Positions 10,560-39,155 of a stretch of 64,000 nt of DNA are shown here, piece after piece. Source of the DNA: Isoetes taiwanensis (taxonomy: Eukaryota; Streptophyta; Lycopodiopsida; Isoetales; Isoetaceae). Below the pieces are notes generated by a model. That model saw only the letters and a list, made by a program, of their open reading frames with translations. It was not told the origin of the DNA and searched no databases. Numbering within the stretch: the stretch's first letter is position 1; each line of letters opens with the position of its first letter. Location of the stretch: contig JAJEKV010000002.1 in NCBI GenBank assembly GCA_021234155.1, forward strand, positions 39,421,841 through 39,485,840, written 5' to 3'. Made by a program: the position numbers and the translations under genes.

Positions 10560-10563
10560 TATT

Positions 10564-10589
10564 GGGTGAAAGCATGTTGTAGTGGAACA
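10564..10589 (+). repeat. Left terminal inverted repeat of outer element
   Basis: 26 bases identical to the reverse complement of 39126-39151. Flanked outside by TATT (10560-10563). Confidence 0.8.
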
Positions 10590-10867
10590 CCTGTCCCCCC
10601 TAAAAATGTGGTGGGAGATATCAAATTTGTGGTGCGATTTTAAATGTTTGTTTGGCGCCTAGTGCATGTACTGCCCGTATTCAATCATTTCTTGAACTGC
10701 AATAACCCAATTCCTACGCCACCCGTCCCATTCCAATTTTCTACGCCACCCGTCCCATTCCAATCTCCACCGAACCGATTTCTAAACCCACGACCCACCC
10801 GCGCCTTTCCTGAAGCACACGGCTATGGCGCTTAATCCGGTTGTGGATCAATCCGTTCATACCTTCA

Positions 10868-11622
10868 ATCATTTAATTTGGAAGCAAATCGCCTAAAATC
10901 TCAAACCGGAGCACGCGGTAAGAGAAAGAGAACTCGAACAAAGAACGGATCATAAAAGACGCCAAAGGAAAAGACAAAGGGAAGCTAAAGAAGAATTAGC
11001 AAAAATTGCATCAGCAGAGGGAGGATCCACCAGAACGGCCTCTACTAGGCGTCGGATGGTATTAAAATTGTTATCTTCATTTCATAGCACCACTAAAGGC
11101 TTGTCTAACAAATGATAAGAAAGAGGTTTTACTAGATTATCTCGCAGGATGACACAATGGACACAAAGACTTGGCGAAAGAGCCGAAAGATTTGCAAGCC
11201 AAGAGCATTGTGGTCAACAACCTCGGGGCTTCCATTCAACTTGTGAAGAAGTCTAACAGCAATGATGGTTTAGCGACCAAGAGTAGTTGCCTTGCTATGG
11301 CCGTAAGAGGAAGCATTAATACCGAAAGTGCTAATCTGTCGCTGCTTTCGGGGTTTTGGTAAACCGCTATTTGGTGTTCATCCTAGGAATCTTACCAAAG
11401 CAAAATTGAAGAGGGAAGAGATAGATTGCAAAGGGGGGAAATGGGTTTTGTACAAAAAGAGTTAGAAGAGCGGATGCAATTCCCAATTCTGTCATAGAAC
11501 TTGTGCAGCAATTTTGGACCGAAAACAATAGGGTCTCTCCAAATGCAAAGGATGTTAAGTTCAGAAGATTGGAACGAAATGTAAGAGAGGATCATGCCAC
11601 TCACTATCTGGAAGAATCACGC
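10868..11622 (+). pseudogene. Transposase-like gene of outer element, N-terminal portion (frameshifted)
   Basis: Three frame-shifted coding stretches run in the same direction. The first (about 10868-11110) is a highly basic segment rich in RERE/KRKR-type residues. The second (11171-11360 and on to about 11460) includes GVHPRNLTKAKLKRE. The third (about 11460-11622) contains ELVQQFWTENNRVSPNAKDV followed by HYLEES. The third block matches the N-terminal 'W..E.SR.SPNAKDV ... HYLE' region of the protein whose SDG/QFK core lies at 30.0-31.9 kb. It ends at a plausible donor, CGCAG|GTTTAT (11622/11623), just before the TGTGGTG repeats, which would then be intronic. At least two frame breaks are present, so the gene is dead. 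Family knowledge here comes from recall of related uncharacterised eukaryotic proteins, not from a search. Confidence 0.55.
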
Positions 11623-11639
11623 AGGTTTATTTCATTTCT

Positions 11640-11981
11640 TCTTCACCACATTTTTTATTGTTAATGTGGTATGTGGTATGTGGTTAGTGATTGCTTGTGA
11701 TATGTGGTTGCTGTGGTGAGGCCGTGGTGTGAAATAAATGCTGTCAATATATGCTTTGTGGTGCCTAGTGTGGTGAATAACATGGTGTAAAATACATCTT
11801 TGTAATATATGCTATGTGGTGCCTAGTGTGGTGAATAACATGGTGTAAAATAAATGCTGTAATATATGCTATGTGGTCCCTAGTGTGGTGAATAACATGG
11901 TGTGGTGCCTAGTGTGGTGTCTAGTGTGGTGCCTAGTGTGGTGCCTAGTGTGGTGAAAAATATGGTGTAAAATGAATTCTA
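11640..11981 (+). repeat. TGTGGTG minisatellite, left half (split by nested element)
   Basis: Units of about 61 bp containing 'ctatgtggtgcctagtgtggtgaataa' then '(c)atggtgtaaaat' are repeated, with a denser run of GTGTGGTGCCTA units at 11899-11955. The same unit continues at 29760-29990. The joining point falls exactly where the nested element is bounded by CTA/CTA. Confidence 0.85.
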
Positions 11982-12039
11982 CACACTCACCCCGGTTTTT
12001 GGTCCACTGTTGAAAACATCAGTTTTGGTAGGTCTACAT

Positions 12040-12705
12040 GTCCTGTTTTCAAAGAATCCTACATGTGGATTTGTGGAGGTATGGTTTTGTTCGATAATGG
12101 TGTTCTTTTTTCAGTGGACTAAAACATCCACTGTTGTTTTGTAGTTTCTTCTATTGTGACATGTCATTTTATAATACAATCCACTGTAGGAAAGAATACT
12201 TAAATTTCTACATGTCTAATAATTCTATTGTCACATGTCTTTATAGATGTAGGAAAGAATATTTGATTCTCTACATGTCCTATACTTCCATTCACATGTC
12301 TTTATAGTAGTAGGACAGAGTACTTTATTTGCTAAGGCATTGTAGGAAAGAATACATGAATTATGACATGTGTAATACTTCTATTGTCACATGTCTTTAT
12401 AGAAGTAGGAAAGAATACTTGATTCTCTACATGTCATATGCTTACATGTCACATGTCTTTATAGTAGTAGGACAGAGTAATTTTATTTGCTAAGGCATTG
12501 TAGGAAAGAATACATGAATTACGACATGTGTAATACTTCTATTGTCACATGTCTTTATAGAAGTAGGAAAGAATACTTGATTCTCTACATGTCCTATCCT
12601 TTCATATCACATGTCTTTATAGTGGTAGGACAGAGTACTTGATTTGTTACATGTGATGCACGCACGATCACATGTCCTTATACTAGTATTCCATGTAAGA
12701 CAAGT
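12040..12705. repeat. Subterminal tandem repeats (~110-bp period) of nested element
   Basis: A unit containing 'gtaggaaagaatacttgatt', then 'tctacatgtc', then 'cacatgtctttatag' with '(a)gtagtaggacagagta' recurs about four times (around 12187, 12250, 12350, 12405, 12500, 12565). It carries many ACATGTC motifs. Its position just inside the left inverted end fits the subterminal repeat zones where transposases bind in CACTA-like elements. That role is inference. Confidence 0.7.
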
Positions 12706-12947
12706 TACTTCAATTACTTAACACCTATTTTTGCATAACAAAACCATCAAGAATTTGATTTGTATTCCTTGAGGGGGTGCAGGACCGGTGCAAAAATGCA
12801 ATATCTCATCTATTGTCCCTTTACCCCTCATGCTTATAGAAAACTAGAATGCAAAGGCATTATGAAGATCCCAAAATTGAATTGAACTGAATTTAACTTT
12901 AACATCCATGGGAACCAACAAGTCTATCGATCCTGGCGGCGGTGCGT

Positions 12948-13085
<138 letters not shown>

Positions 13086-13136
13086 GAATTGTATTACGTC
13101 TTTTGGGAGGCCTCCCAGGCCTATAAGACGAGAAAA

Positions 13137-16100
13137 TTAATTTACATCATAAAATATTAGATGAGTCTCCATTTCCTCATCTAATTCCTCACTCTCATTC
13201 CAGGTTTCATCTTCATTCAACAGTGTGTTCACATCTTTTGTACATCTCTCTCTTAGTTGTAGTGTCTCAATTAGAAAAGATCCAATTCTGTTTCCATCCA
13301 ATTCAAAGAAAGTACCTAGGTCAGGTGCATGTGTGCCATGTCTATCTCGGATCATGCTATATGCTGGGCACCTAAGTATGACATTTTCTTCATCTTCAAT
13401 GTCATCTTTTCCGCATACCTTGCAGCACCTCAAATGCCTTGGGATAGTTCCCCAACGGCCAACTTCCACCCCAAGATGGTGTGAACTAAGTCGTATTCTG
13501 CTAATGGTGTGTCTTTTCCTCACGGATATGTTCTCCCCTAAGTATGCAGCAGTCTCTAGTGAGGGATTCATATGCATTCTGTATAGTAACATCTTCGTTT
13601 TTGGATTTAGCCAAAGTCTCCTCTTAACCTTTTCATGAACCCATGCCCTCAAGTGATCATTTTGGGGTATATCTTCCCATACAATATCCCACCTGGCAAA
13701 CCATTTAAGAACATCAGCAAACCATCCCTTATTTTCAGTGCCCAGCATGGCATGATGGGGAATGCGGGTGTTATTCATTTTCTTGACCTTAGTCAAGTAT
13801 TTAATGCACTTGAGCAGAGCTTCTCCTTCAAGTGTCATAAGGCCACACTCAACTAGCATCATCGGGTAGGGTGTTTGTGCCTTTACTCCTAGCTCCAGTC
13901 TTAAAAATTTCTTGTGCACCTGCTCTATGTCTTCCCATAAGCACTGTGGCAGCCCTGGCCCCCAAATTTCAGCCCCATAGAGTATTGTGCTTTGGACCAG
14001 CGCCTCATAGAGTTTGCTCTTAAGAGCCCACGCCCAAATGTGAGACTTCCTGCATGTGCTTTGCATAGAGTATAGCGCTTTTTGCCCACTTTCCACCCTT
14101 TGTGCTATGCATGCATGCCATTTGTGATTTCTTCTTATGACAAGCCCAAGGTATTTGTATGCTTTCGCATGTCTCCACTAGATCCTCCTTATATTTAAAA
14201 CCGGTTCTTGCCCGAGAGCTCCAAAACGTCATAATCTTAGTTTTTTTCCAAATTGACTTGCATCCCTGTCCTGTCACAGAAAGTGACCAAAAGGCCCAAT
14301 AGCTGTTGCATGTGCCCATGTGAGCGTGCAAAAAGCACTACATCATCCGCATACAAGCAATTGGATGACATAACCATACATCTCCGTGCCTCCATCACAA
14401 TTATCTTTCAGCCACTCCTCAAGGCTATCTATAAAAAGACCAAAGATCGTAGGAGACAGGGGGCATCCCTGTTTCACGCCAATGTTACTTTCCGTTACAT
14501 CTGATATGACTGCTTTGAATGGCATCGATAGCTGCACCAACACTTTTTCATATAATATCTGCACTGCATCTGTCAACTGTTTGGGTACCTGTAAATATTC
14601 CATTCTTTCCCATAGCTTGTTCCGTGGAACTTTATCAAATGCTTTACGGAAGTCAATAAAAGCAACATACACTGGTTTTTTGGTGCCCTTCACTGTATCA
14701 AAAATGCATTTTAGTGTGAGCAGGTGGTCTAATGTAGACATATTTGCACGAAATCCTGCCTGAGTCTTGGCTCTCTTATCATTATGTTCAGCCCATACAC
14801 TAATTTTCTTCTCTATTATGCTAGCAAAAAGCTTGGAGAATAGATTGCTTACCATGAGAGTACGATAATTATTGCCATCCAGCATAGATCCACTCTTGTG
14901 TATGGGAACAATTCTGTTAAGTTGCCAATCCTGGGGGAATCCCTGTTGCATCGCTATATTGAACATGCGCGTTATTACTGCATACATGCTCTTCCCGGCC
15001 CATTTGAGATGTTCTGCGCTCAGCATGTTCTGATCCTTTGCTTTTCCATTTGCAAGTTTGTTTATGCCCTCGGCTATTTCTTCCTCGAAAGACCAAATCA
15101 GATTTTGCTTTTGGCGTTACTTGGCTGTTAACATCATAGTATAGCTTTTTGACTTGGCTCCAAAGCTCGGCTGCAGAGATGGGAAGATCTCTGTGCTTGT
15201 GCTTCTTCAGATTTTTCCAATATGTTTTCGGATCTGCATGACATTGTTGGACCAGAAACTCCTGCTTTGACAAGATAAAATGTCTTTTCTTTTTCTTAGA
15301 ACAATCCGTTGATATTTCTTCCTCATAGTTTTCTTGCTTTCTCCCGGCTTTCTTTCCATTGTTTCTTAGCCGCACGACACTCATCGTCATACCATGATTT
15401 TACGAGGAAGTCCCTTTTTACCCGATTTGGTTTACATTGATGTATGGCATCTGCAATTATCTTTATCAATTGACTGTGCATATCTGCGGCATTGTCATCC
15501 CAAATGCTTTGTTCTATTTGCTCTTCCACATATGCTCTATATGCCTCTGCCATAGCAGGTCTGATCATACAAATAGGTTGCGGGGCAGCATTTTCCACAG
15601 GGGATGGCATTCTACTCTTACCTATGGAGAATATCAATGATGCATGGTCTGATTCCAGGTTTTCTCCCCCAACTTCGAAATCTGTTATTAACTCCAGAGC
15701 ATTTTGTGATATGATCAAATAGTCAACCACACTCTTGGATCTGCATGTACAAGCTTTGGAGTTAGGAAATCGATCCATTCCATTACATACCAGGAGTTCA
15801 GCATTTGTGCAAAGATTTAATAGTTGGCAACCGGATTTTGTGGTTGTCGGATCAGCAGACAATCTGCTCCAGCCTAGCCTAGCAATTTCTGAGTCCTCCA
15901 TCGATTTAAACCATAAAGGCTCATCTTCCCATGTATGGATTGTTGCTTGTGTGCTTCCTGTTCTCCCATTGAAATCGCCTACCAATATGACAGTCCCCAC
16001 ATCATCGATATTCCATGACATCTTGTTCCAATTCAAAGAATATATCTTCACCAGAGCCCCATCCGAATAGGCTGTTTATGTCTTGGTGCGAAGTAACATG

Positions 16101-16411
16101 CCCATATATATCATATTGTTTTGTTGCTTGATCCGCATCCATATATATTGATTATTTATATCTTTCTTGACAGCCATCACTACATCCAGATACTCGTCTC
16201 TGACATAGCATGCCACACCGCCATTTCCAATATCTATATCTGTGAATCTTCTGTTCTTAACTGATGTTATCCGTGTGAATCCTTCTATGTCCGGTAATGC
16301 ATATAAGTCATGTTCCTTGGTTTCTAAAAAACACAGCAGATCAATGTCTCTTAGTTCCTCCTGCATACTCAGGATCTTAGTCTCGGTCAGTTTGTTGATA
16401 TTCCAGACCAT
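13137..16411 (-). pseudogene. LINE-A ORF2 (endonuclease + reverse transcriptase), frameshifted
   Basis: This polyprotein would nick target DNA and copy the LINE RNA. Endonuclease: CFLETKEHD near 16320, VGDFNGRTG near 15970 and ESDHASL near 15640. Reverse transcriptase: WQLNRIVPIHKSG near 14900, AFIDFRKAFDKVP near 14640, GVKQGCPLSPTIFGLF near 14460, then Y-A-D-D at about 14347. A one-base shift just before YADD ends the 14343-15026 frame at LLVCG-stop. Other breaks lie near 16060, 15350, 15120 and 14100-14330. The C-terminal Cys motif at about 13410-13380 reads CKVCGKDDIEDEENVILRC, with Asn where LINE-E keeps His. The fragments together cover the usual ORF2 domain order. Confidence 0.9.
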
Positions 16412-16435
16412 TATCCTGAGTGCCTCCCATTTGTC

Positions 16436-17149
16436 CTATTCCTCAATGATCACCTTGCCTTTGACCCATTTTGCTTTTTGATTGTTTTGTCTGGCTTCCT
16501 TGTACTTAGCAATTTCTACTTTCTTTTCTGCTAGCTGCTCTTTGGTTAGATCCTCATTGATCCAAATAAATTTCCCCTTCAATGTATATGTATTTTTCAG
16601 CACCAAGAATCGATCATCCCTGTTTGCAAACTTGACAATCATGTGTCTAGTTCCTGTGTCTCTTTTCCCTACCCGGAATGCATCAGAGATGTCTACCTTT
16701 TGGATGCCCATGGTCTCTTGGAAGAACTGCTCTGCTGCAATTTTAGGCTTCTCCTCTGGCTTTTCTGGCAGCCCTACAATCCTGAGGTTCAAAGCTCGGC
16801 TCTTCCTGTCCTGTATCTCCATAAACTGCTCAAGGGTATTGCGCAAATCAGAAATTTCAGTTACCTCATCATCCCCAGGGCCGGGTTCCCGCTTCAATTC
16901 TTCAATGTCACTCTTTACTGCTTCAAGTTCCTTCCTTATTTGCTGATAATCAGATCTGATTGCTTCATTCTCCTCTCTTAATTTTCGTATTTCTTCTAGC
17001 AGGGCCTCTTCCCGTGATGCAGCTTCTTGCCGAAAGAGAGATAGTTCCTTCCATATGGTGGTGAGGGAGATCTCCATCCCTGAATCAGGACTAGAGGGCC
17101 CTCCATCAATTGGTTTGTCCTTTCTGGTTTGTCTTTTGGTGGTCGCCAT
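16436..17149 (-). CDS. LINE-A ORF1 protein (coiled coil + RRM-like, nucleic-acid chaperone type)
   Basis: The frame is open for 237 residues from ATG at 17149. Residues about 30-88 are a charged coiled coil (KELSLFRQEAASREEALLEE and following heptads). From about 118, RALNLRIVGLPE starts an RRM-like domain, followed by the conserved DAFRVGKRDTGTRHMIVKF and FIWINEDLTKEQ segments. This architecture equals the L1-type ORF1 protein, which trimerises and coats LINE RNA in the cytoplasm. I chose this start because it follows the conserved leader and aligns with the LINE-C start at 52196. The alternative upstream TTG is not needed. The related LINE-D ORF1 (260 aa) is also open. Confidence 0.85.
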   Translation of the reverse strand: MATTKRQTRKDKPIDGGPSSPDSGMEISLTTIWKELSLFRQEAASREEALLEEIRKLREENEAIRSDYQQIRKELEAVKSDIEELKREPGPGDDEVTEISDLRNTLEQFMEIQDRKSRALNLRIVGLPEKPEEKPKIAAEQFFQETMGIQKVDISDAFRVGKRDTGTRHMIVKFANRDDRFLVLKNTYTLKGKFIWINEDLTKEQLAEKKVEIAKYKEARQNNQKAKWVKGKVIIEE

Positions 17150-17353
17150 ATCTAACAACTGCTGAAAATCTATACCCGACCGGAAAATTGCAATTACAGA
17201 TACTTAAAAAGATCCAAACCTGGTCATGCTATATACTGTTAGAAAGCTCTCGGAATCCTCTTTCCAACGAGCCCAAGAACGTGCCAATCTGACACTCTGG
17301 GAGAGAGTTATGGCCTGTTGAACCTTCACCTCTGAAACCCTAGCATCCAGCGT

Positions 17354-17555
<202 letters not shown>

Positions 17556-20418
17556 GTTGTATTTACGTTTAAAAGACCATCAGGTCTATACAACGTTCAC
17601 CCCAGATTACATACAATCCAATATTACATATGAGCTCTCAGTCAGAGTCTCATTAATTACTCTGCAATCTCATCCTTCTCATAATCTTCTAATAAAGATT
17701 TAAAGTTATCAATATGCATCTCTCTTATTTGGTACATATCTACTAGGTAGTTACAAACATTTTTTTTCGGGAGTTGAAAGAACTGGATCAAATTATAGAC
17801 ATGCACATCGTGTTTCCACTTCGAACGCCGATATGCCGGATATTTAACATTTAATAATGATGTTCTTAGTCCTCGATTTCATCTTGGCCGCATACTCTAC
17901 ATGTCCTCCTATGTCTTGGGATATTCCCCCATCTCCCAATCTCCACCCCTAAATGATGTGAGCTTAGACGAAATCTGCAGACCATGTGTCTCATCTTGGT
18001 TGATTGTTTTTCTGTCAGGTACCGCGCCTCGTGCAAAGCAGGGTTCAGTGATTCTTTATAGTATAGCATTTTCGTACCAGCACCGTCCCACATTTTTAGC
18101 TTAATATGATCCTTGACCCAGTCTCTTATCTCACTTTTATTTTTATTTCGGGGCACTTCCTCCAAATTCATCCCCCACTTTCCAAGCCATTTTTTGAATA
18201 TCAAAGATGCCACCCTTTAACTTACTTTCCTCCAATGCCATACGAGGGAGTCTCATCATCATCCATGCCCCAGTACTTTATTAAGATATATTAACGTCTG
18301 GTACAATGCTTCTCCTTCTAATGGGAGCATCCCTGTTTCAGTCAATATCATCTCATATGGTGTTTGTACCTTAACTCCTAATTCTGACAGTAGGAATTTT
18401 TTTTGGATCTTCTCCACCTGTTTCCACATGTCCAAGGATAACCCTGGCCCCCATACCTCTACTCCATACAGAATGACTGCTTGGACTAGAACTTTATAGA
18501 GCATTTTCTTTAAACTGAAATCTACAATTCGAGCTTTCTTGCATTTTTTTTGGAGTGCAAACAGCGCACGTAGCCCCCCGTCAGTTCTCTGTGCTACTGC
18601 CTTGTTCCACCTATAGGTCTGGTCAACTATCAGCCCCAGGTATTTATATGTGTTTGTTATAGCCGCCATCTCATTCTTATACATAAAGCAGTACTTATCT
18701 GTTTTTGTGGTGCCAAAAATAACCATTTTTGTCTTATCAAGATTAACCGTCATCCCCTTAGAGGAACAAAAATCCGCTAGAATATTAAGATGTCTCTGCA
18801 TACCTTCTTTGCTTCTGGAGATGAGTACAATGTCATCTGCATATAGCAACAAACGAACTGTGAATCCTGCAATTTGAGATCCATCTCCGCCTCCTAAAAA
18901 AATCCAGTCCTCAAGTTCATCTATAAAAATACCAAACAGAGTTGGAGACAACGGGCAGCCCTGCTTGACTCAATATTATCACATTATGTCCTTGCATTCT
19001 TGAAGAGAGGTATGCCCGACAAACCGGGCAAGAACCTTCTCATATAAGCAAGCCACTGCATTTTGCAATCGTTGAGGTACTCCAAGTTTTTCCAGTCTTA
19101 TCCATAGGTTTGATCTGGGAACCATATCAAATGCTTTTCTAAAATCAACAAACGCAGCAAACAGAGGTTTCTTTGTGCCTTTAACAGAGTCTATAAGTGC
19201 ACGGAAGGTGAGTAAATGGTCTATGGTTGATTTCTTTGGCCGAAACCCAGCCTGCCCATTTGCTCTGGCCTGATTATTTTCTGCCCATGTACTAATTTTC
19301 TTCTCAAGAACTGTGGCATATAGTTTCGCAAACAAGCTGCTCACCATGATCATCCTATAATTATTTGGATCTGTGGCCTTTCCAGCTTTATATATGGGAA
19401 CTATTCGGTTTAACTGCCATGATTGCGGAAAACCATCAACAATTGCTGCATTGAACATCTTGGTGATTACTTTTACTACAGAATCTCCAGCCCATTTTAC
19501 CATCTCTGCTAATAGCCCATGAGAATCTACTGCCTTTCCATTTGCTAGTCTGTCTATTCCCTCTTTGACATCTATTTCCAAGAATTCAAATTTGTCTGTA
19601 CCAACTTTCATCTTTTCACTGCACCCTGGAACATGATATAAGGTCTGCACTTGTTCCATTAAAGACTTTGCATCTAGCTTTGTCTGTAATTGTTTCCCTT
19701 TCAAATGGCTCCAGAATCTTTTGGGCTCCACGACCAATTCCTTAATCAACTCGTCCTGCCTTTTGCTCATGTAGGCCCTTTTCTTATTTCTTATCAATCT
19801 AACATATGCCTTTTTTATTTGATTTTTCTCTTCAATATGTGCCTGTTTAAGTCTCTTCCTCATTTCTTTACACTCACTGTCAAACCAAGCATTACAGGGC
19901 AGCCCCTTAACTCTCCTATTTGCCACAAAACATTGCTTTGCAGATTCTAATAAAAGAGAAGTTAGCAGATCACTTACTTGACAAGCTTGATGGGGCCAAT
20001 CAGTTTGTTGAATCCTTGCTTCACAAAGTGTATGATATTTATCTGCTTTCCGCTTATCCATATATATGCGTCCAGGCTTAAAGTTATTCTCCGTAATGGT
20101 TTTAGAAAAGTTGGCCACCCGGATTTGGAGCATCAAAGGAACATGATCAGATTCTACTCTCATATCTCCCACTCGCAGATCCTCTATGTTTTCAGCTGAA
20201 TCTTCACTGGCGAGGATATAATCTACCACGCTTTGACCCTTGCCGCTTATCCCAAAACTAGTGCAGTTTCCAGTTCCAGGAAATTTGTGTGTCCCATTGC
20301 ATATTCGTAAATCCAACCCTCCACAAAGGTTAAGAACATGGCTACCTTGAGGACATACATACCGATATGACTCACATGATGATCTAGACCAACCCGTTTG
20401 CAGAAGCTCCTCCTCGTC
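17556..20418 (-). mobile_element. LINE-B: 5'-truncated copy, head-to-tail with LINE-A
   Basis: On the minus strand it starts inside the endonuclease domain at about 20418, directly at a (TC)n tract. It runs through the reverse transcriptase to a 3' end at 17556. It lacks ORF1 and the front of the endonuclease. It has the same strand and family as LINE-A and lies in tandem with it across a shared (GA)n tract. Confidence 0.9.
17680..20415 (-). pseudogene. LINE-B ORF2 remnant (endonuclease C-part + reverse transcriptase)
   Basis: Endonuclease end: ICNGTHKFPGTG and VESDHVPLML (near 20130). Reverse transcriptase: WQLNRIVPIYKAG (about 19420), AAFVDFRKAFDMVP (about 19150), then a break near 18960, MSPTLFGIFIDELEDW, and an intact LLLYADDIVLISRS at about 18835. 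Thumb-like region: TYKYLGLIVDQTYRWN. Cys motif: CRVCGQDEIED-stop at about 17870, so the final His and Cys are lost. There are at least three inactivating changes (at about 18960, 18235 and 17866). The 18979-20316 segment alone is open for 445 codons, so decay is moderate. Confidence 0.9.
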
Positions 20419-20572
<154 letters not shown>

Positions 20573-20635
20573 CTTTTTATGCCTCAAATCCATTTTTTTC
20601 AGCATATGCACATGATCTCAGTCCCAATCAGCTCA

Positions 20636-22247
20636 AACATGCCAAGGTGGCTCAAACATGCCACCAAGGTGGCTCAAACATACACAAGGTGGCTCAAACA
20701 TGCCACAAAGGTGGCTCCAACATGCCAAGGTGGCTCCAACATGCCACGCTGGCTCTAACATGCCATGCAAGCTCCAATATGCCAACGTGGGCGCAAAACA
20801 TGCCACGGGCTCCACCATGCCACCTAGGCTCCAACATGCCAAGGTGGCTCACAACATGTCACCTAGGCTTAAATATGCCAAGTTGGCTCAAACATGCCAC
20901 CTAGGCTCCAAAGATGCCAATCGTAGCTCTAACATGCCACCTAGGCTCAAACATGCCAAAGTGGCTCAAACATGCCACGGGCTCCAACATGCCACCTAGG
21001 CTCCAACATGCCAAGGTGGCTCAAACATGCCACCTAGGCTCCAACATGACAAGGTGGCTCAAACATGCCACATGGGCTTCAACATGCCACCTAGGCTCCA
21101 ACATGCCAAGGTGGCTCAAACATGCCACGTGGGCTCCAACATGCCACGTGGGCTCCAACATGCCAAGGTGGCTCTAACATGCCACCTAGGCTCAAACATG
21201 CCACTGTGGCTCCAACATGCCACTTAGGCTCCAACATGCAAAATGGCTCAAACATGCCACTTAGGCTCCAACGTGCTCAAACATCCCACGCAGGCTCCAG
21301 CATGCCACCTATGCTCCAACTTGCCAAGGTGGCTCAAATATGCCACGTGGGCTCCAACATGCCACCTAGGCTCCAACATTCCTAGGTGGCTCAAACATGC
21401 CACATAGGCTCAAACATGCCATGCAGGCTCACTTAGGCTCCAACATGCCAAGGTGGCTCCAACATGCCACCTAGGCTCAAACGTGCCAAGGTGGCTCAAA
21501 CATGCCACCTAGGCTCCAACATGCCACCTAGGCTCACACATGCCAGGTGGCTCAAACATGCCAAGGTGGGCTCAAACATGCCACCTAGGCTCCAACATGC
21601 CAAGGTGGCTCAAACATGCCATGTGGGCTCCACCATGCCACCTAGGCTCCAACATGCCAAGGTGGCTCACAACATGCCACCTAGGCTTAAATATGCCAAG
21701 TTGGCTCAAACATGCCACCTAGGCTCCAACATGCCACCGTGGCTCTAACATGCCACCGTGGCTCTAACATGCCACCTAGGCTCAAACATGCCACGTGGGC
21801 TCCAACATGCCACCTAGGCTCCAACATGCCAAGGTGGCTCAAACATGCCATCTAGGCTCCAACATGCCACCTAGGCTCAAACATGCCAAGTGGCTCAAAC
21901 ATGCCAAGGTGGGCTCAAACATGCCACCTAGGCTCCAACATGCCACCTAGGCTCCAACATGCCAAGGTGGCTCAAACATGCCACGTGGGCTCCACCATGC
22001 CACCTAGGATCCAACATGCCAAGGTGGCTCACAACATGCCACCTAGGCTTAAATATGCCAAGTTGGCTCAAACATGCCACCTAGGCTCCAACATGCCACC
22101 GTGGCTCTAACATGCCACCTAGGCTCAAACATGCCAAGGTGGCTCAAACATGCCACGTGGGCTCCAACATGCCACCTAGGCTCAAACATGCCAAGGTGGC
22201 TCAGGCATGCCACCTAGGCTCAAGCATGCCACCTAGACACCCCAAGT
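20636..22247 (+). repeat. 19-bp minisatellite array 1
   Basis: About 85 head-to-tail units of CTCCAACATGCCACCTAGG and variants, where the last six to eight bases alternate among CACCTAGG, CAAGGTGG, CACGTGGG and CACCGTGG. The invariant core is AACATGCCA. Because 19 is not a multiple of three, all frames are read through in turn, which produces many long but meaningless open frames (PRLQHAKVAQTCHLGSNM-type). Confidence 0.95.
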
Positions 22248-22526
22248 GGTGACATGGCATGCCAAGTAAGCAAGGTCAAGTTTTGACTAGGTCAAAAATG
22301 AAACGATGTCCATCTTTGGTCTTTTCATTGGGTGATGTTGGCAAATTTTAGGTGACATGGCTAGATGATGGTGACATGGACATGATGACTAGGACTTTAT
22401 GCAAGAAATATGATGGTAGAGGAGTTTGGCAAGGAATAGAATAGAGGGATCTGAAGAACTTAATGCGCTGACATACTTCCCCAACTCGAACCAGGCCAGG
22501 ACTTTGCGCAGCTTTCTCACCAGAGG
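22248..22526. other. Unique spacer after minisatellite
   Basis: No repeat or gene is recognisable here. It contains several 'gtgacatgg' motifs. Confidence 0.4.
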
Positions 22527-26925: not shown

Positions 26926-29728
26926 TTTAAAAAACATAGTTTAATGTAAAATCTAGCAAATTTATATCTTGTTATATATTAAATCCAAAGACATATGTTA
27001 TATGGGCGACAAATTATCAGGTAGAGGTTAAACATTTTTCGAACCCTGATCCCAATGGTTTCTTGTGCAAGGTCGTGCATTACACACATATATTGAGTTC
27101 AAATGCTAGTAATAAGTCTTGTTTGTTAGACTCTTAGTTTGGTTGAACCGCATGAAATAGCAGCTTGGGGGAATTATAAATCGTTTAATCGTAGCCGTTA
27201 GGTTGCACCAAAAAGGGTTGCTACCCCCATCGACAGGCACCCTCTCTTAAGAAAAACTAAACTGCCGGTATACTTGTTTAGTTTGCGATCCTATTGTTTT
27301 AGCTTAGTATGAAAAATCTGAGGCCCATATGGGCCATGGCCAAAATGACCAGGGGTGTGCATGCAGGCCACATCCAAGCCATTTAATTGGCCATGATCAT
27401 ATGACCCGAATATAGCAGAACCTATAAAAAAAATACCCCTGCAAAAATAATGAAACATATGTTGAAAATTAAATCTAAAACTTAATATATGTAGTGAGAA
27501 AAGTGAGCCAAGATGGATGGCCTAGATTTTGAGCTTAGATGGACCAGTTGAGATTGTGATCCTTTTAGTGTAATCCTATTTGTTGCACTAAGGAGATGGA
27601 CGGCATAGATTTTTGCCAAGATGGATTCGGTTGAGATTGCAATCCTAGTACTCTCATCCTATTGGTTGAACGAAATGCCAGTTTTTCCCTCTTTGCCGAT
27701 TTCCTCTTGCCTTGCTTGGGCGCGACCGGATCTGCAGACCACGGCGTCCGGGCGGCCACTACATCTAAGCCATGGTGATCTGTAGGAGCCCATGGTTAAG
27801 CTCCTTGTGCTGGCGGGCAATTCTCGATTATCCGGCGGCTCCACAGATTTTCGGTGGCACGGCAAAGCTGACCCTCAAATTTTCAGCGATTGGTTTCGGT
27901 AGCGGCTCAGATTCTCGGTGGCTTCGGTAGCAGCTCTTAAATTTTTAATGAGGTAATGTATTTGTGAACTTATTTGAAGTTTGATTTTAGAAGGCGGTAT
28001 GATATGATGCAACCCGTGGCGGCGACTATGGTCGCTGCTTTGTTTCTTCGTAAAACGTAGATTTCTTGTATCGCCAGATCCCCGCACTTTGTTTCTAAAG
28101 GGCATTCTTGCTTGCGGGATATTATTCTTCGCTTCTTCTCATTGTTCAATAACAGGCTCCGCCTTGAATCCTTGGTTTTGAAACTTGGAAAGTGAGAGCA
28201 TGTCCGCTGCGTTATGATCTTGGAGCCCCGACACGAGGGTTCATATCCGGAAAGGAGAGAGGAGGGAAAAATGAGAGGAATGTTTGTAACACTCTATTCT
28301 ATGCTTTCCAAAGTCTCAAAGAAAGGTATTTCTTTTATGCAAAACCATAAAATCGTGTTTTGTGCCACGAACAATGATCCGAACTAGAAACACTACTTTG
28401 GTCCGGATTTTTGTAGTCAAAACTGAATTATTCTTCTTCTTTTTTATCCAAAAGAGTTATGCATCTAAATGCAAACTGATTTTTTGGGTTTAACCCATGT
28501 TTCGAGGCGGATAAATCGACCATAGTTGATAACGCAATCGTCTCAGATCATTTTCAAAATTTATTGAAGAAGGGAGTTCAAAACAGGCTATCAGCAAGTA
28601 TCAGAATATAGCAGGCCAAGAAGGCACATCAAATCCAGAGTTGTCTCCAAATCCAGAGTTGTCTCCAAAGGCTAGCCGGCATAGTAATCATAGTTTTCCT
28701 TGAGTTCCAAGCTATTAAATATTGTCCTACTTTGCACTTTATGATGCAAAATAAAAAATTTCCTGTATTAAAGGAGAACATATTGTATTGAATTTCATGT
28801 ATTAAAAGAGAACATAACGATGAATGGTCATGAACTCAAGATCTTATGTTCACTTTTCCTTAAATAATATACGAAATTTGATTATATTGTCTTTTTATGT
28901 GCAATTAAGTACTAAATTAAGTACTAAATGAAATGTTGCACCAAGAAATATGTAACAAATTCTAAAAGTGACAAGGATACAATACTAAGAAACACTTGTA
29001 CAAAGCAAAAAAACAAGTGACCTTTTCTCGATCAATAGGTAATAACATCACATACTTTTAATTAGAAACCACAATGTTCTTATTTGTAACATTGTTTCCG
29101 GCGTCTTGATGTGCATTATTTACATGTAGACATTTATTTGATATGCCATGTGTCAATATCTCATTAGTTAAACAACCACACTAGAAACTCACGTTTTTTT
29201 CTATGTGTTATTATATTACTTTTTACATGTCCTCATTTTAAGAAAACAATAGCTAGATTTCAATAACACATGTAGTGTTTCGTAAATTAAAAAAAGGCCA
29301 TGCGTGGTTTTCTTAATTTTGCAAAAACAACATTTGAAACGACGTGTCCATATTGAGGAAAAGAACATTTGAAAATATTATTTTTCTATTTCCTACGTGT
29401 TTTTTTTATAGTTCTTTATTTCTAGTGTTGTAATTTAGTTTTTCAGGTGTAGTAAAATTAAAACCTATGCGTGCTATTTTAAAGCTAAACAACGCATGAT
29501 TTTACAAAAAACAACAGCGAAGGAAAAAAGTACACGTTGACAAAAATTCACAAAAACTATATCAATTTTTTCTACGCGTGGATTTTTCTGCCAAAAGACC
29601 ACCGTGGAAATTTTTTGCCAAAAACCACTGTCTCTTTGTGCAAATCCGGATAAACGGGCCACGTGGACTTTTGGGGCCATTTTGGTGTTGTTTTTGGCAT
29701 AAAACAACACTTTCGTACAACTAAAAAA
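26926..29728. other. AT-rich right arm of nested element, no gene
   Basis: No supported gene. An ~85-bp near-duplication lies at 27507-27668 ('agatggatggcctagattttg' ... 'cctatttgttgcac' twice). A 19-base duplication 'aatccagagttgtctccaa' lies at about 28635-28670. Toward the right end, motifs such as TACATGT and CACGT recur, as in the left subterminal zone. Confidence 0.45.
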
Positions 29729-29759
29729 CAACTGTGGACCAAAAATTGGGATCAGTGTG

Positions 29760-29990
29760 CTATGTGGTGCCTAGTGTGGTGAATAACGAGGTGTAAGATG
29801 AATGTCTGTAATATATGCTATGTGGTGCCTAGTGTGGTGAAAAATATGGTGTACAATAAATTATGTAATATATGCGTTGTGGTGCCTAGTGTGGTGAATA
29901 AGGAGGTGTAAGATGAATGTCGATAATAATATATGCTATGTGGTGCCTAGTGTGGTGGAAAATGTAGTGTGCAATAAATATGCTGATCAC
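29760..29990 (+). repeat. TGTGGTG minisatellite, right half
   Basis: Four units of 'ctatgtggtgcctagtgtggtgaa(t/a)aa' with TAAGATGAATGT-type spacers, continuous in unit and orientation with 11640-11981 across the nested insertion. Confidence 0.85.
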
Positions 29991-30004: not shown

Positions 30005-31900
30005 TGCGGTTTGCAATTGTTCAGAAATTCAAGACGGAACATCCTAGTGTTATGATCAAACAGAGGGATGTTTGAAAAGTTGAAACCATGGTTTGTTGTA
30101 AAATTAAAGGACTTCAATAGTTCTTTTTGTATATACCATGTTAGAATCACGGATGCTAATAGATGGCTTCAATAGTATGAGAACTAAGCACCCAAAAAGT
30201 CACTGCGGTGCACTTGTCGACTTTTTCTTGGTCGGACATATATGGTGAATGCGGTGAATGTCCCCAATACAAAATAAGCAAGAAGTCTGTGGCAGGGAAT
30301 TTTATGTGAGAAAACTAGCTTCCAACCTTACCATAAGAGGGAATGCATTCTGGGTGAGTGTAAAGAGTGTGGGATTAAGAAGTTCCCTATCTGCCCACAT
30401 GAACAATCTAGTGATAGTGGCATGGTGAAGTGGGAATACCTAGACTATGAAAAAAAAGCAGTATTGAGAGATGGCAAAGAAGAAGTCTAAGCTCGTTCAC
30501 CAACACAATGAAACTGCAAGTCTTTCACTGGTGAACAAAATGTTGGAGAAGCTTCCAAATTTTCCTTTACACAACTTCAGATATAAGTGGCAGGCAGGCC
30601 AGTACAAAGAACTCCTTGATAACTTGCCTGGAGATGCTTACCTATCTGTGGTTGACTTCACGAGAATTATACTTTTAAGGAGCGAAATGAAGTTCAGTCC
30701 ATGCGCTGGGTCAACAACCAGATAACTATATTTGTTCAAATAACCTATCAGGTTGATCCACAGACAGACACCATTGAGAAGGAAACACACTACTATGTGT
30801 CGGATGATAGGGAACATGACACACTTTTTGTTCAACATTGTTTTATGAAACATTTTGAGTACTTAAAGCAGAAAGGCAATGTCCCCAAACAAAGACTATG
30901 TATTTTCGGATGGTGCTTTGCATCACAATTCAAAGCGGCCGGATCATTTTATTTTGTTGGAAGGTACGGTTGTGATACGAGGTCAACATGATGTGGAACT
31001 TCTTTGGATCAAACCATGGAAAAGGTGAACATGATGGGAAGGCAAGAGAATTGAAAAGATGGATCACGAGGTCTACGGCTTAAACATCCCCGACATTAAA
31101 CTAGATAATGCCCATGATGTGGTGAAAATTGCGAGAGAAACAATTTCAATGTGGTACATCCGAGTGGACCTAAAATGGAAGAAAAGTTCGAGATACTTAC
31201 GGGAAATAAAACCTGAGGATATCAACAGGAAAAAGGCTTGGGGTGCAGAGACAATTCCAGAAACCAGGCAAATTCATTCAGTCCATGGATTCAGCACAGG
31301 AAATCCAACACAGCTACATACCAGAAAGCTATCATGTTTTTGCAGCAATTGTTTGGATGGAAAATGGGACATGTGTGAGAACGAATTGTATGTAGATGAA
31401 TGGGACCTTGTAGTCGTTGAACCATCCTCCAATGTTCATGCGGATGTGGAAGAGACCCGCAAGTCTACCAGGCCACTATACTCAACCTTGGCAAATGTAC
31501 TTGCAGAAGCACTTAGAGAAGGAGACAGCTTTGCAGTTGCTGCACCTAAAGGGAACGAGGAGGATTCTGTATTTTGGATGTTTATATGCACCAAGCCAAA
31601 CTTTGAAGTTGAAAATGACTTCAAGCAGAACGGAAACTTGTTTATGAGAGGTGAAACCGTTGTGGAGGGCATTTACTATAGAAAGAAGCCTCAGTCAAAG
31701 GTGATGTATGAGTTGTTGACAAACGAGCCAAAGTCACTTGTATTCTCTACTCAAATTTGTGCTATTCGAGTTCCCATGCAAAGAGATCAAGAAAGGTGCT
31801 CGAATCTGTTTCTGTGCTAGACCAGGCAGATGAGGAAAAGATTCTAGAAAACTTGCCCGAGGTTTTATCTGATGAAGATAGCATGTCTGATGAAGAATAG
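30005..31900 (+). pseudogene. Transposase-like gene of outer element, main portion (frameshifted)
   Basis: Coding pieces in order: QKFKTEHPSVMIKQR then MFEKLKPWFVV (30035-30105); a Cys-rich knuckle CILGECKECGIKKFPICPHE (30344-30403); NYTFKERNEVQSMRW (about 30670-30710); HYYVSDDREHDTLFVQHCF (about 30800-30850); a core with FSDG (about 30908) and ASQFKAA (about 30928-30948); WNFFGSNHGKGEHDG (30993-31037); a second Cys motif CFCSNC...C (31337-31380); and an acidic tail ending DSMSDEE-stop at 31900. A related domain order (Cys knuckle, SDGC-x2-QFK, WNFF-GKGExDG, CFC) is known to me from uncharacterised transposase-like proteins in animals and seed-free plants. The fold and the acidic residue in SDG suggest an RNase H-like nuclease, which is inference. 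At least four frame breaks (about 30070, 30210-30260, 30665, 30905) and another at about 31795 show that it is dead. Confidence 0.65.
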
Positions 31901-32094: not shown

Positions 32095-32195
32095 CAGGTT
32101 CACCACATGTTTCACCACATGTTTCACCACATGTGTTTCACCACATGTGGTGACACATGTGTTTCACTACATGTTTCACCACGTGTTTCACTTTC
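32095..32195 (-). repeat. CACCACATGTTT tandem repeats
   Basis: Short units TTCACCACATG(T) repeat about seven times just downstream of the transposase-like gene, including the palindrome CACCACATGTGGTG. Their orientation is opposite to the TGTGGTG repeats upstream of the gene. Confidence 0.8.
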
Positions 32196-32538: not shown

Positions 32539-33178
32539 ATGGCCAACTTCACCTCTTGGATGCTGCAAAACGATGGAGTGCCGGAATGGGACAATGTGAC
32601 CAGAGAAGAAGAGCCCATAATACCTAGGCGTGCTGTCCCGATTTTCAGCCATGCAGAATGGATGGACATGCTCAGGATACAGAAATTACTCTATTCACCG
32701 GATGAGAATATGACCACAGAAATGCTGAAAACTCTCACCAGGAGGTTGAATTGTATACCACAGCTCCCAGACCTCTCAACTTACTCTGCCTCCACTGAAA
32801 TTTTTACACACCAGCATCTTTGGCCCGTTCCTCATACTATTGACCAGGATCTGCAAAGGTTGAGACCTTTTTACGCTTAATGGCTACCAAGCCTTTACGC
32901 TAAAATGAGTTCCTCTTTTGTTATGATAGGTTGTTTACTGAGAGGACCAATTCCTTCACTTCAGGGATATGTACTATCATCACAAGGCCTTGCAGGATGG
33001 ACATGGAGAAGCTGCTATTCTGTTTGGTAACACTCCACCATTATGGTTTTTTGCTTTCCCTCCAGAATGGGAGCAAATAGGCTGGGAAGCTGACCCGGTG
33101 GCCACTGATCTGGTGATCATAGAAGATGACGAGGAGGAGCTGGACCCAGATCTCTTTTTGATAGACCCACAGGAATGA
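32539..33178 (+). CDS. Hypothetical two-exon protein within outer element
   Basis: Exon 1 is 32539-32858 and exon 2 is 32965-33178, giving about 177 residues. The 106-bp intron (32859-32964) begins GTTGAG and ends in a pyrimidine-rich TTCCTTCACTTCAG. Splicing joins CAA-AG|G-GAT-ATG in frame. The product starts MANFTSWMLQNDGVPEWDN and ends in a strongly acidic tail (EDDEEELDPDLFLIDPQE). No domain is recognised. It lies 0.64 kb downstream of the transposase-like gene, on the same strand and inside the outer inverted repeats, so it may be a second transposon protein or captured cargo. Unlike the transposase it shows no frameshift. The start was chosen as the first ATG. Expression is unproven. 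Confidence 0.45.
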
Positions 33179-33334
33179 AAACAAGTGTATATAATCTGAA
33201 ATGTAACCTTATGTAATCATTTTATATGTTTAATATAAATCTTCACTCTTCAATCTTTACTGTTTAATTGACAGGGTGAAAGTGACACACAGAAAAATTA
33301 CATTAAGGATGAACGGAATGGGACAGAGAAACAC

Positions 33335-34295: not shown

Positions 34296-34370
34296 CATCA
34301 CCACAGCTTCACCACAGTTTTCACCACATTTTTCACCACAGCTTTCACCACAGATTTCACCATAATCAGC
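34296..34370 (-). repeat. TTCACCACAG tandem repeats
   Basis: Six imperfect units of (T)TTCACCACA(G/T) in CACCACA orientation, as in the other right-arm arrays of the outer element. Confidence 0.8.
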
Positions 34371-34929: not shown

Positions 34930-35253
34930 TCAGGTGGGGGCCATCTTGAGCTCTATATGGAGGTCGTCCTCGCAGGCATACATCTTCATTTCGAGGAGTC
35001 GCTCCTCGTCATCATAACCTGCATGCACCCACTCAAGCACCCGCAATGAAGCGACAGCTTGATGATCCATGATGAGCTTCTCCACCTCTGGTGGAGTGAA
35101 CTTGGCCACCATCAGAATCGGGCCTCCTCCTGCGGTGGAGGAAGACACAGATCCTCCGCAGGAAGCCACGGATTCTGACCGTGCTGGCTGCAAAGGAGCA
35201 GGCACAATGGCCGGGATAGTGTTCCTGCGGAGTGTAGTCTTGAACTTAGCCAT
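34930..35253 (-). CDS. Hypothetical small protein (107 aa)
   Basis: The frame from ATG at 35253 gives 107 residues: a basic start (MAKFKTTLRRN), a Ser/Gly-rich linker, then a compact, charged C-terminal part with FTPPEVEKLIMDHQAVASL and EDDLHIELKM. The start sits in a strong context (CCGCCATGGC) after a CT-rich leader (about 35254-35310), typical of plant mRNAs. The frame extends further upstream to 35397, but that part reads into the minisatellite flank. No domain is recognised. It lies on the strand opposite to the transposase-like gene, in the right arm of the outer element, so it may be cargo. Confidence 0.35.
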   Translation of the reverse strand: MAKFKTTLRRNTIPAIVPAPLQPARSESVASCGGSVSSSTAGGGPILMVAKFTPPEVEKLIMDHQAVASLRVLEWVHAGYDDEERLLEMKMYACEDDLHIELKMAPT

Positions 35254-35392
35254 GGCGGAAGTGAAGGAGATGGACGGAATGGGGAAGGAGTGAAGGAGAT
35301 GGCGGAATAGACGATGGGGACGGAATGAAGCTGCAGGGCATCCATACGATTTTGGGAATGAGGCAGAAGAGGAAAGGGACGTTTGCATGCAT

Positions 35393-36090
35393 GCCACCTA
35401 GGCTCCAACATGCCACAGTAAAGGGTCAAGCATGCCACATAGACCGAAAGCATGCCACCTAGGCTCCAACATGCCAAGGTGGCTCAAACATGCCACCTAG
35501 GCTCTAACATGCCACGTAAGCCCCAACATGCCACCTATGATTCACCACATGATTCACCACATGATTCACCAAATGCACCACATGATCCACCACATGCACC
35601 ATTTGCATCACCAAACATGTTGGTCAATGGAAGTCAAACATGTAACAAAGGTCACGTAAAGGCTCAAGCATGCCAAGGTGGCTCAAATATGCCACCTAGG
35701 CTCCAACATGCCAAGGTGGCTCAAACATGCCACCTAGGCTCCAACATGCCACGTAAGCTCCAACATGCCACCTATAATTCACCACATGATTCACCAAATG
35801 CACCACATGATTCACCACATGCACCATTTGCATCACCAAACATGTTGGTCAATGAAAGTCAAACATGTAACAAAGGTCATGTAAAGGCTCAAGCATGCCA
35901 AGGTGGCTCAAATATGCCACCTAGGCTCAAACATGCCAAGGTGGCTCAAACATGCCACCTAGGCTCCAACATGCCACGTAAGCTCCAGCATGCCACCTAT
36001 GATTCACCACATGATTCACCACATGGTTCACCAAACGCACCACATGATTCACCACATGCACCATTTGCATCACCACATCTATCACGACAT
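35393..36090 (+). repeat. Higher-order repeat: 19-bp minisatellite combined with TTCACCACATGA units
   Basis: Three large repeats with a period of about 225-240 bp (starts near 35451, 35688 and 35916). Each contains 19-bp CTCCAACATGCCACCTAGG units followed by GATTCACCACAT/GCACCA units, then (in the first two) a shared spacer 'catcaccaaacatgttggtcaatg'. A 254-codon open frame (35452-36216) runs through the array, but it encodes only repeat translations (PHDSPHDSPNAPH, QTCHLGSNMP) and I do not regard it as a gene. Confidence 0.9.
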
Positions 36091-37430
36091 GTAACACCAC
36101 ATTGTCATGAATCTTTGAATACATCAATTTCTTTCCGAGATTTGAACTCCACCGAGTGTTGCTCGTCAGCCGAAAAAAGTCTATTGTATACAATAGTATA
36201 CAACAATGTACATTAGAGTGTCAATGAAAGAATAGGTTACAAGAATAACCTCTTTGGTTACAATAATACAAACATGTGATTACAAGTAAAGATCTATTGA
36301 TCTGTCAACCTCAGCTTCATTACTACAGCAACTGTGCTTCACAACATCAATCATCATTCTGCGCGTGTCCAACATTTCATAACTAGAAATTGATACACCC
36401 CGCAACAAACATATCAGGCCTCACATTGGATGAGTAATACCTTCAAATTCTTAACTCACCTTGCATTGGGATAGTATGTCCAAGCCTCAGATATTTGCAG
36501 CCACAACATGCTTTACAAAGACACATATAGCAAGACACATATATGCTTGAAATGTCATGGAGGTGTCTTTTGCTTGGAATTCTGCTCTTGCTTTTTCTCT
36601 GAGACACTTCCAGCTGCAAAAATTTAACAGATTCGGTAACTATATGGGTCAAATTAAAAAGAAGACAGGCACAAAAGGTTGGAAGTTACCTTGTGACTTA
36701 CATTCACCAAACGATTTGTTCAGATCATAACCTGATGCATCTGCTGATTTGGCAGATTGGTGTGGAGCATGACTTAATGCATCTGGCGATCTCGGCGGAT
36801 TGTTGTCCGCCTTGGAGCACCCTCTCGGAGCTTGACTTGACTTGGCACTTTAGATACACAAAACGGGGAGAAGCAAAAGAGACTAAGCCAGCCAGATCTT
36901 GTTTTATGTCGGGCTTACTCCCTTTTCGAAGTTTCTCGCTTGATGTATCTAATTTAACACCGAGTGGCGATGTCATCCTAGGGGCAAATTAGATACGACA
37001 AAATGAAAAACGAAGGAGACTAAGCCGGGCCTACTCTCTTTTCGAGTTTCCTGCTTGATGTATCTGTCCCTTACATCAGGCCCTTAGCATGTAAACTAAG
37101 CTACCTATAAGTGCTCACCTGTAAGTGCCTCAGTAGCTTGAAGTTGCTTTTGATCCTCCCTACTCACACCTAAGGCTTGTACCCATCTTTGTAGAAAATT
37201 CATGACAGCAATTCTCAATGCAATGATGATTGCAAATCCCGCAAAGAGAACATAAATTTGTCAATGAGAATACAATTATACTAAGCACTTCAGAATTTTG
37301 TTATGAAGTACCTCAAGAGGTCGAAAGCGGACTTACAATCAATCACCGATCTTGCCTTACACCGAATCACTTCGATCTTGTAGAGTTGATCCATTCTCCC
37401 AAAGGTCCTGTTGAATTCAACCGAAAGTAA
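36091..37430. other. No supported gene; local duplication 36848-37068
   Basis: A roughly 130-base block ('gatac...agactaagcc' to 'tttcgaagtttctcgcttgatgtatct') occurs twice (36848-36951 and 36990-37068) with indels. No coding feature can be supported. Confidence 0.5.
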
Positions 37431-37439
37431 TCCAAGGTT

Positions 37440-38060
37440 AGTACCACATGACACAACAGCACACCACTTTACACACCACAAATTCCATCATGACAAACTT
37501 TGCACCACAAATGGCGTCATATTCACCACATGTGGTGTGGCATGTGGCACCAGGGTGGCGTCATATTCACCACATGTGGTGTGGCTGGTGCCACATGACA
37601 CACCACCTATGGCACCACAATGCACCCAAGGCACCACATATGGCAATCCATTACTTCGCACCACAAATGGCGTCAAAGACACCACATGTGGTGCAAAATG
37701 TGGATCCATAGTGGTGCCACATTAGACACCACATGTGGCACCACAATGCAAAGAAGGCACCACATCCGGCAGGCATCCACCACCCCATATGTGGCAGATA
37801 GCGTGGTGCAATATTTAGCGCAGCAGTTGGCACCACATATGGCAGACAATCCACCATTCACAAGTATCACCATATCTAACATCACATATGACACTAAGTA
37901 TAGAAACATATGGAAGCCAATTCACTATTCAGATAAGGTACCATTGTTTGGTACTATATGTGACACTACATATGCTACAAACTACATTATTAACATATAA
38001 TTGGCACCATATGACTGTCTGTTAACACATTTGGAGCTACATACTACTGTGAACTGAAAT
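37440..38060. repeat. CACCACA/TGTGGTG palindrome-rich repeat
   Basis: About 20 spaced CACCACA motifs, several joined into the palindrome CACCACATGTGGTG (for example at about 37520, 37571 and 37680). Spacers are of the kind 'ggcaccacatatggca'. The zone lies in the right subterminal region of the outer element. Confidence 0.85.
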
Positions 38061-38243
38061 TATCCACCACAACTCGAAACTAACAAAGACAAATTTCCTA
38101 CACATAACTCACAACACACCCAAATGAAGAAGTAAGTGGTGTACCGATTGTTCAAGCTTGCTAGACCTTTGCTTTGGAAAATAACAGTTCCAATATTAAA
38201 TTGCATCATATGGTGGTTCCGGAAGAAGAGGGTTGAAAAGTAC

Positions 38244-39120
38244 CTATTTTTTCGATGATTTTCCCCAGATTCTTCTTACTACGACTTGAGGAGGCTTGAA
38301 TTGTGGCCTAGTCATTTCAAGAGAGGAAGCATCATCTCGTGGCGGGTTGCTCTGCTTCCACACTATTTGAAATGCTTGTATGCTTCCTCTTACGTTGGGA
38401 CGGAGAGTCTTCGACCCTTTTTCTCTTAATCTGTTGCGGAACTCAACCGGTTTATTTCTTTTCCTTTTGTGTGAAGGTAATACGCAATGACCATAGTCTC
38501 GTGAGGCCATGCCTCCCCGTGCACACTTCCTCGCCTGTGTGATTTTTTTGTAAAGGCACATATATTCATTATACCTCTCCTTGCTCGGATTCTTCAACCC
38601 GCATGATGAAACAAAACAATATTCTAAACAACAGAGAATCATGGGCATCCCCGAATCTAGAATGCAACCCACCGTAAGTGGATTTTCCTAATACTTTCGG
38701 GTCCCCAAACGGACTTCGATTTCTTCTTGTGTGGCGTAATGCTTTTCTTGCCTGTACATTTCCTTGTAGGTGTATCCCGTGGCATTCAAGTCCGGTATGA
38801 TCGAGCCATTTCGTGGATCGATCTTCTTGCCGTAAATCAAAATGGTCTTGGCGGATTAAGGGAGCGCGTGATCGAGTTTTTGAGGGAAAATGAAAATTCG
38901 AGAATCGAAAATGGACTTGCCGGATTAAGGGGCGCGTGATCGAGTTTTTGAGGGAAAATGATGGGTAATGCGTTCTTTGAATAAGCCCTGAATAAGACTG
39001 AAAGGACAAAATTTTGAATAAGTAATCATGTGTATTTTTGAAAAAATAACTCCCTCTCCCACTACAAATTCGGTAGTTCCCACCACACTTAGCACCCAAA
39101 AATGTGGTGCTAAAATGCAC
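38244..39120 (-). other. Two overlapping unassigned ORFs in right end of outer element
   Basis: Minus-strand frames of 183 codons (39120-38569) and 142 codons (38672-38244) follow each other with a frame change. The second contains a basic patch (SHKRKRNKPVEF). The first includes a direct duplication: the block reading 'ggattaaggg(a)gcgcgtgatcga' then 'gtttttgagggaaaatga' on the plus strand is present at 38857-38899 and 38923-38962. No domain is recognised and codon quality is poor. They are probably not genes. Confidence 0.2.
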
Positions 39121-39125
39121 GTTTT

Positions 39126-39151
39126 TGTTCCACTACAACATGCTTTCACCC
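39126..39151 (-). repeat. Right terminal inverted repeat of outer element
   Basis: The reverse complement is identical to 10564-10589 over 26 bases. Flanked outside by TATT (39152-39155). Confidence 0.8.
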
Positions 39152-39155
39152 TATT

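Follow-up and report, generated by a model that had tools for sequence, protein, structure and literature searches.

The Sola superfamily of DNA transposons is said to trace to Bao et al. in 2009. In the published descriptions, Sola elements encode a DDD transposase, make 4 bp duplications, end in terminal inverted repeats (TIRs) of 11–1124 bp and mostly measure 2–9 kb, with some above 15 kb; they are present in moss and seemingly uncommon in flowering plants (PMC10741241). Moss Sola has also been reported elsewhere (PMC9033089), Sola elements are listed for ferns (PMC6890710, PMC6786969), and dictyostelid Sola2 makes AWWT duplications (PMC3627910). Two further systems carry repeated short motifs. 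In VANDAL elements, introns and upstream DNA contain arrays of a short motif that keeps one orientation; the anti-silencing protein VANC binds these arrays (PMC5735166), and DNA methylation is lost as a result (PMC5735166, PMC10398659). In CACTA elements, subterminal sites are bound by TNPA (PMC2613891). Here we describe a 28.6 kb element in a 64,000-nucleotide stretch of the Isoetes taiwanensis genome (contig JAJEKV010000002.1, positions 39,421,841 to 39,485,840; hereafter, the window). We are confident, short of certainty, that positions 10564–39151 represent one inserted DNA transposon, a large element of the cut-and-paste kind that probably belongs to the Sola superfamily. For the terms searched, the open literature yielded no account of this element, nor of its transposase as a named family.

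The left and right termini (10564–10589 on the forward strand and 39126–39151 on the reverse strand) are identical at 26 of 26 positions in inverted orientation, and both begin GGGTGAAAG, the first five bases being GGGTG. TATT lies directly outside each end (10560–10563 and 39152–39155), and the in-register identity of the flanks is limited to these four bases; a local alignment of 600 bases per end returned the 26 bases only. The terminal 21 bases, searched with up to three mismatches, occur in the window at just the two ends themselves, compared with a mean of 0 over 100 shuffles. We did not find a third copy of the 26-mer in the window, where the next best matches carry nine mismatches, and an exact search of viral contigs with the first 21 bases returned none. 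The first-pass annotation of this DNA had proposed identical 26 bp inverted ends, a TATT duplication outside both and a match unlikely to arise by chance, and all three statements are confirmed by these results.

We then followed the transposase-like gene that had been placed between the ends, and its presence was borne out by tblastn matches in both arms of the element. At an E value of 1e-3, 30 of 31 database relatives matched the window in 72 pieces, all on the forward strand and between 11467 and 31814; with all 150 fetched proteins as queries, 124 matched in 278 pieces, two of which lie in the left arm. The left-arm piece is the N-terminal one (11467–11661, the extent of the coding match) and was detected by two proteins of the liverwort Calypogeia fissa, P0026 (E 1.4e-7) and P0029 (E 3.9e-7). 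Residues 309–371 of P0026 match at 11467–11661 and residues 383–741 at 30683–31742, while residues 306–368 of P0029 match the left arm and residues 380–698 the right arm. The right-arm matches of both liverwort proteins span 30683–31745, with the same strand and order as in the left arm. Across both arms, the order and common strand of the matches suit a single gene that contains an intron-like gap. One transposase gene seems to run through the element, split by ~18 kb of intron-like sequence (from ~11.62 to 30.01 kb). Reading the sequence around the gap, we noted a candidate splice donor, CAG|GTTTAT, at 11624/11625 and a degraded putative acceptor near 30009, which would make the gap an intron. 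Three relatives (P0001, P0005, and P0012) start just ahead of this point, suggesting that the putative intron is old.

The catalytic and C-terminal region (30011–31814, forward strand), delimited by tblastn of the relatives, is broken. Among the right-arm matches, the reading frame shifts near 30.45, 30.66, 30.98, and 31.08 kb; three stops fall within the first right-arm transposase piece. The Asp (aspartate) codons at 30654–30656, 30909–30911, and 31033–31035 occupy the positions of the three Asp residues of the family, and not all of them are in the same frame.

The 31 database relatives reach E values down to 9e-106, and a profile search returned at least 312 relatives; they come from animals (Holothuria, Lottia, Rotaria, Littorina, and Asterias are named among the matches listed), liverwort and metagenomes. 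Among 21 aligned relatives, D323 and D364, spaced 41 residues apart, are invariant in 21 of 21; full conservation also extends to the neighbors of D323 (S322-D323-G324) and to H358-G-K-G361. D240, in a VVDFAENY motif, is present in 19 of 21, the exceptions being the two liverwort models, and a DFxEN motif surrounds the first Asp in 131 of the 150 fetched proteins. The conserved Asp residues suggest a DDD-type transposase, and their order, together with the hydrophobic stretches around them, would suit an RNase H fold.

In line with the first-pass annotation, which had seen no match to the common plant superfamilies, no Pfam family was found at the curated cut-off in the transposase region. The open reading frames of the element gave none except the RVT_1 of nested long interspersed nuclear elements (LINEs), and none was found in six frames of the right arm, the left arm, and 20568–29700, nor in six transposase relatives. 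Sub-cut-off matches were seen, the lowest E value among the relatives being 2.4e-4 (DUF6597 with P0005; 21.6 bits, cut-off 27). A precomputed Pfam domain is recorded for one of the 120 profile-search proteins listed (P0085). Since none of the six tested relatives reached the Pfam cut-off, this transposase family can escape routine annotation. A sequence search of the PDB with 31035–31820 returned two matches at E 0.35, which we took as chance. In viral contigs, the transposase pattern occurred in 124 and 16 stretches, none of which was confirmed as a relative, and a phage search with P0030 as its sole query returned none.

To place the window copy, we built a tree of 40 rows, comprising 39 proteins hand-chosen from the 150 and the window composite. 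The window row joined a group of 20 rows (support 100/100), together with both liverwort proteins and 17 environmental ones, and all 10 named animal proteins used were in the opposite group; the exact place of the window row is unsure because it fills 49% of the kept alignment columns and its branch is long.

A search of prokaryote genome contigs gave 43 stretches and one locus with a transposase relative, L001, on a 4 kb contig of a bacterial metagenome-assembled genome, in which it is probably a stray animal contig. L001 carries one intact frame of 690 amino acids with the same catalytic motifs as the family. The motif TAYGTCCAACAC, chosen by inspecting L001 itself, is present there (L001:571–3728) in eight copies within two mismatches, compared with 0.55 expected; the frame is free of copies and has four to its left and four to its right, and their strands (three forward and one reverse on the left, four forward on the right) show no polarity. 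Judging from this one case, the family may tend to carry repeated motifs around its transposase. We claim no TIR for L001: inward matches there extend to 12 bp at most (a three-way tie), a length equalled or exceeded in 84 of 300 resampled controls, and matching 4 bp flanks were not found.

TGTGGTG is strongly enriched in the window (71 sites, compared with 7.8 expected), with 65 sites in the 28.6 kb of the element and six in the 35.4 kb outside it; between 12950 and 29700, there is one. Left of ~31.2 kb, 23 sites are forward and one reverse; to the right, five are forward and 36 reverse (Fisher p 9e-12, which overstates the contrast since tandem sites are not independent and the ~31.2 kb cut was chosen from the data as the best strand split). 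When neighbors within 300 bases were joined into clusters, all five left clusters were mainly forward, two of the five being single sites, one of these inside a LINE; on the right, four of five were mainly reverse and one was even. The strand switch falls after position 31118, which is still within the transposase region, and before the 32.1 kb array. That TGTGGTG motifs point inward from each side, as first proposed, thus holds overall, with 59 of the 65 copies fitting one polarity, but not for every copy: the site at 11644 is reversed on the left, and those at 32146, 37531, 37575, 37687, and 39103 are forward on the right. The coding matches, whose extent we set ourselves at 1,975 bases, contain 2 of the 65 sites, one of which (11644) lies past the candidate donor. 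In a 7-mer enrichment control, several other enriched arm 7-mers proved to be overlapping pieces of the same arrays; this control excluded two-letter words and hence TGTGGTG, whose counts come from separate direct motif counts.

From left to right, two subterminal forward copies (10607–10634) are followed by an array in the intron-like stretch (11644–11955; 11 forward motifs and one reverse, in 57/58 bp and 12 bp units). The 57/58 bp repeat array flanks the gap on both sides, at 11752–11977 and 29758–29979; the latter, a second intron-side array with eight forward motifs, is 81% identical to the former. The first mainly reverse array (32101–32152; five motifs, four of them reverse) lies past the transposase region. 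It is followed by five reverse motifs at 34299–34352, by 13 reverse motifs at 35543–36101, in 225 bp repeats that also hold a 19 bp unit, and by 16 motifs (13 reverse, three forward) at 37474–38071. By analogy, the element's own proteins may bind these arrays, which would tag the long element for them. We reasoned that the two ends belong to one element, as first annotated, because the transposase matches run in order across both arms and the motif arrays cover both arms and stop near the ends.

Several observations weigh against reading the locus as one Sola transposon. Only 2 of the 31 relatives match the left transposase piece at the 1e-3 level; as these are two gene models of a single liverwort, the connection between the arms depends largely on one species. 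Both models are without the first Asp motif and the part corresponding to ~30011–30683, which is probably an exon missed in those models. The tree branch of the window row is long (1.52). The 4 bp duplication is known from a single copy at a single site, where a chance match has a probability of 1/256. Lastly, the assignment to Sola draws on printed features rather than on sequence comparison, and TATT does not fit the AWWT of dictyostelid Sola2 (PMC3627910).

Given one element, we nevertheless favor Sola, by a modest degree of belief, as its best filing: the 4 bp duplication, seen in one copy, agrees with the superfamily, and 26 bp lies within the printed TIR range. The Sola hypothesis of the first-pass annotation thus stands as far as printed features go, and the name is unproven. 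A single DNA transposon of an undescribed superfamily that makes 4 bp duplications and is not Sola is a possibility that we regard as unlikely, though deserving of weight. The extra open frames and the motif arrays would suit such a superfamily, as would the discordant TATT and the fact that neither the transposase region nor any of the six relatives reached a Pfam cut-off. However, the putative DDD pattern, the duplication, the TIR length, and the size all fall within the printed Sola ranges, and Sola has been reported in ferns (PMC6890710, PMC6786969) and in moss (PMC9033089).

A Mutator/VANDAL-like or CACTA element that made an atypical target duplication is, in our view, very improbable. 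The motif arrays here do lie in intron-like and other non-coding DNA as in VANDAL (PMC5735166), and subterminal repeats and large size recall CACTA (PMC2613891). However, six frames of the arms yielded no such transposase domain at cut-off, the ends are without a CACTA start, and the duplication is 4 bp rather than the 7–12 bp of Mutator/VANDAL (PMC10741241), membership of which we therefore rejected, or the 3 bp of CACTA (PMC2613891). Least credible of all is an origin of the ends in two separate elements, such as outward-pointing CACTA-type ones, as hinted at by the CACTA-like strings TTGTAGTG at 10577 and CACTACAA at 39131: the identity of the ends extends 5 bp inward of the CACTA-like string and stops exactly at TATT outward, one protein family matches both arms in order, as expected of one gene running from the left arm into the right, the motif arrays lie inside the ends and not outside, and the partner strings that led us to reject the outward CACTA reading by their absence were not found in the window (CACTACAA left of 10577, TTGTAGTG right of 39131). 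Other superfamilies were discarded on their printed hallmarks. Kolobok and piggyBac require a TTAA duplication (PMC9587614), and the one here is TATT; Ginger has TGTNR ends and an integrase-type transposase (PMC2836005), and here the ends begin GGGTG with no integrase domain at cut-off.

Returning to the single-transposon reading, with Sola as its probable superfamily, the anatomy points to the following course. A DDD-type enzyme, its gene reading from left to right, would attach to the 26 bp ends, perhaps aided by the TGTGGTG sites, excise the element and reinsert it with a 4 bp stagger, leaving TATT on both sides. The transposase gene would have taken up two LINEs in its intron-like stretch and would have decayed. 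With this gene broken, the present copy would depend for movement on enzyme from an intact relative.

The nested LINE sequences (12950–20567, reverse strand), recognized by Pfam and by their tracts, comprise two bodies with RVT_1 (~13.1–20.4 kb). Pfam RVT_1 matches lie in 14343–15116, 18259–18969, and 18979–20583, and (AG)n tracts at 12950–13082, 17356–17532, and 20420–20567. Further right, 19 bp minisatellite arrays (20631–22236 and 25840–26923) surround a GC-rich block (22527–25843) that has ~810 bp tandem units and inverted copies, same-orientation 19 bp arrays at both borders, and no Pfam family at cut-off. The 19 bp unit recurs in the right arm (35390–35999), mixed with CACCACA motifs, and part of the middle section may therefore belong to the element. 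The LINEs and AG tracts amount to 7.6 kb that is foreign by content. If all of the motif-poor 12950–29700 is foreign, 11.8 kb of element is left; if the LINEs alone are, ~21 kb is left. A residual of ~10.8 kb after removal of the insert, as first annotated, is thus not established, since the figure depends on what counts as foreign.

A second LINE copy region was seen at 57376–62741, and 12974–14945 aligns with 57376–59336 at 66%, including part of the (AG)n tract. The 3′ sides of the LINEs adjoin long (AG)n (12950–13082, 17356–17532, and 57376–57489); possibly, this is a type of LINE that targets (AG)n microsatellites in a plant.

Beyond the transposase, reading frames mark three possible genes in the right arm: one of two open stretches in different frames with an acidic end (32539–33178, forward), a short one of no family (34930–35253, reverse), and one near the right end with a single internal stop and no Pfam family at cut-off (38244–38855, reverse). 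A 189-amino-acid composite of the first gave 47 candidates and no relative. All three are candidates for a motif-binding protein. Elsewhere, matches to zf-RVT and DUF4283 were both below the Pfam cut-off, and Rfam at gathering thresholds returned none over the whole window. The left flank holds four tandem copies of a ~250 bp unit (7467–8464). Outside the element, the frame at 55693–56529 matches DDE_Tnp_4 and Plant_tran, the latter above cut-off; we presume that it is a PIF/Harbinger-type transposase. Together with the zf-RVT and DUF4283 matches and the liverwort relatives, the Plant_tran match points to a land plant.

If the arrays are read by a protein of the element, a Sola-like lineage of land plants could have independently built a motif-array system like those of VANDAL and CACTA. 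This speculative proposal, which we hold to be rather improbable, has ~60 center-polarized TGTGGTG copies in intron-like and intergenic DNA read by an element-encoded protein (one of the extra frames at 32.5, 34.9, or 38.2 kb) that would protect the element from silencing or join its distant ends. Strand-polar arrays in a plant member of this transposase family would be a sign that control by motif arrays also arose outside Mutator and CACTA, and the element supplies a defined motif and candidate reader genes.

Compared with its relatives, the window element differs from L001, whose motif is a different one and not strand-polar, and which has a single long frame in a 4 kb contig; the animal relatives (Holothuria, Lottia, Rotaria, and Asterias) share the catalytic motifs, and the named ones group apart from the window row. 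The CACTA elements En/Spm and Tgmt* resemble it in large size, short TIRs, and repeated subterminal motifs at both ends (PMC2613891). However, the window element has no CACTA start, a 4 bp instead of a 3 bp duplication and no CACTA transposase domain at cut-off, and its motifs are spread through the arms, whereas those described for CACTA are near the ends. VANDAL elements of Arabidopsis share the dense, one-orientation short motif, present as tandem repeats in introns and non-coding DNA, but have another transposase and another duplication length, and we recognized no VANC-like gene in the window element. Overall, on printed descriptions, the element is most like Sola in its putative DDD-type pattern, 4 bp duplication, and TIR length, and in the reports of Sola from moss and ferns, and it differs from Sola in its extra open frames and its 65 motif copies.

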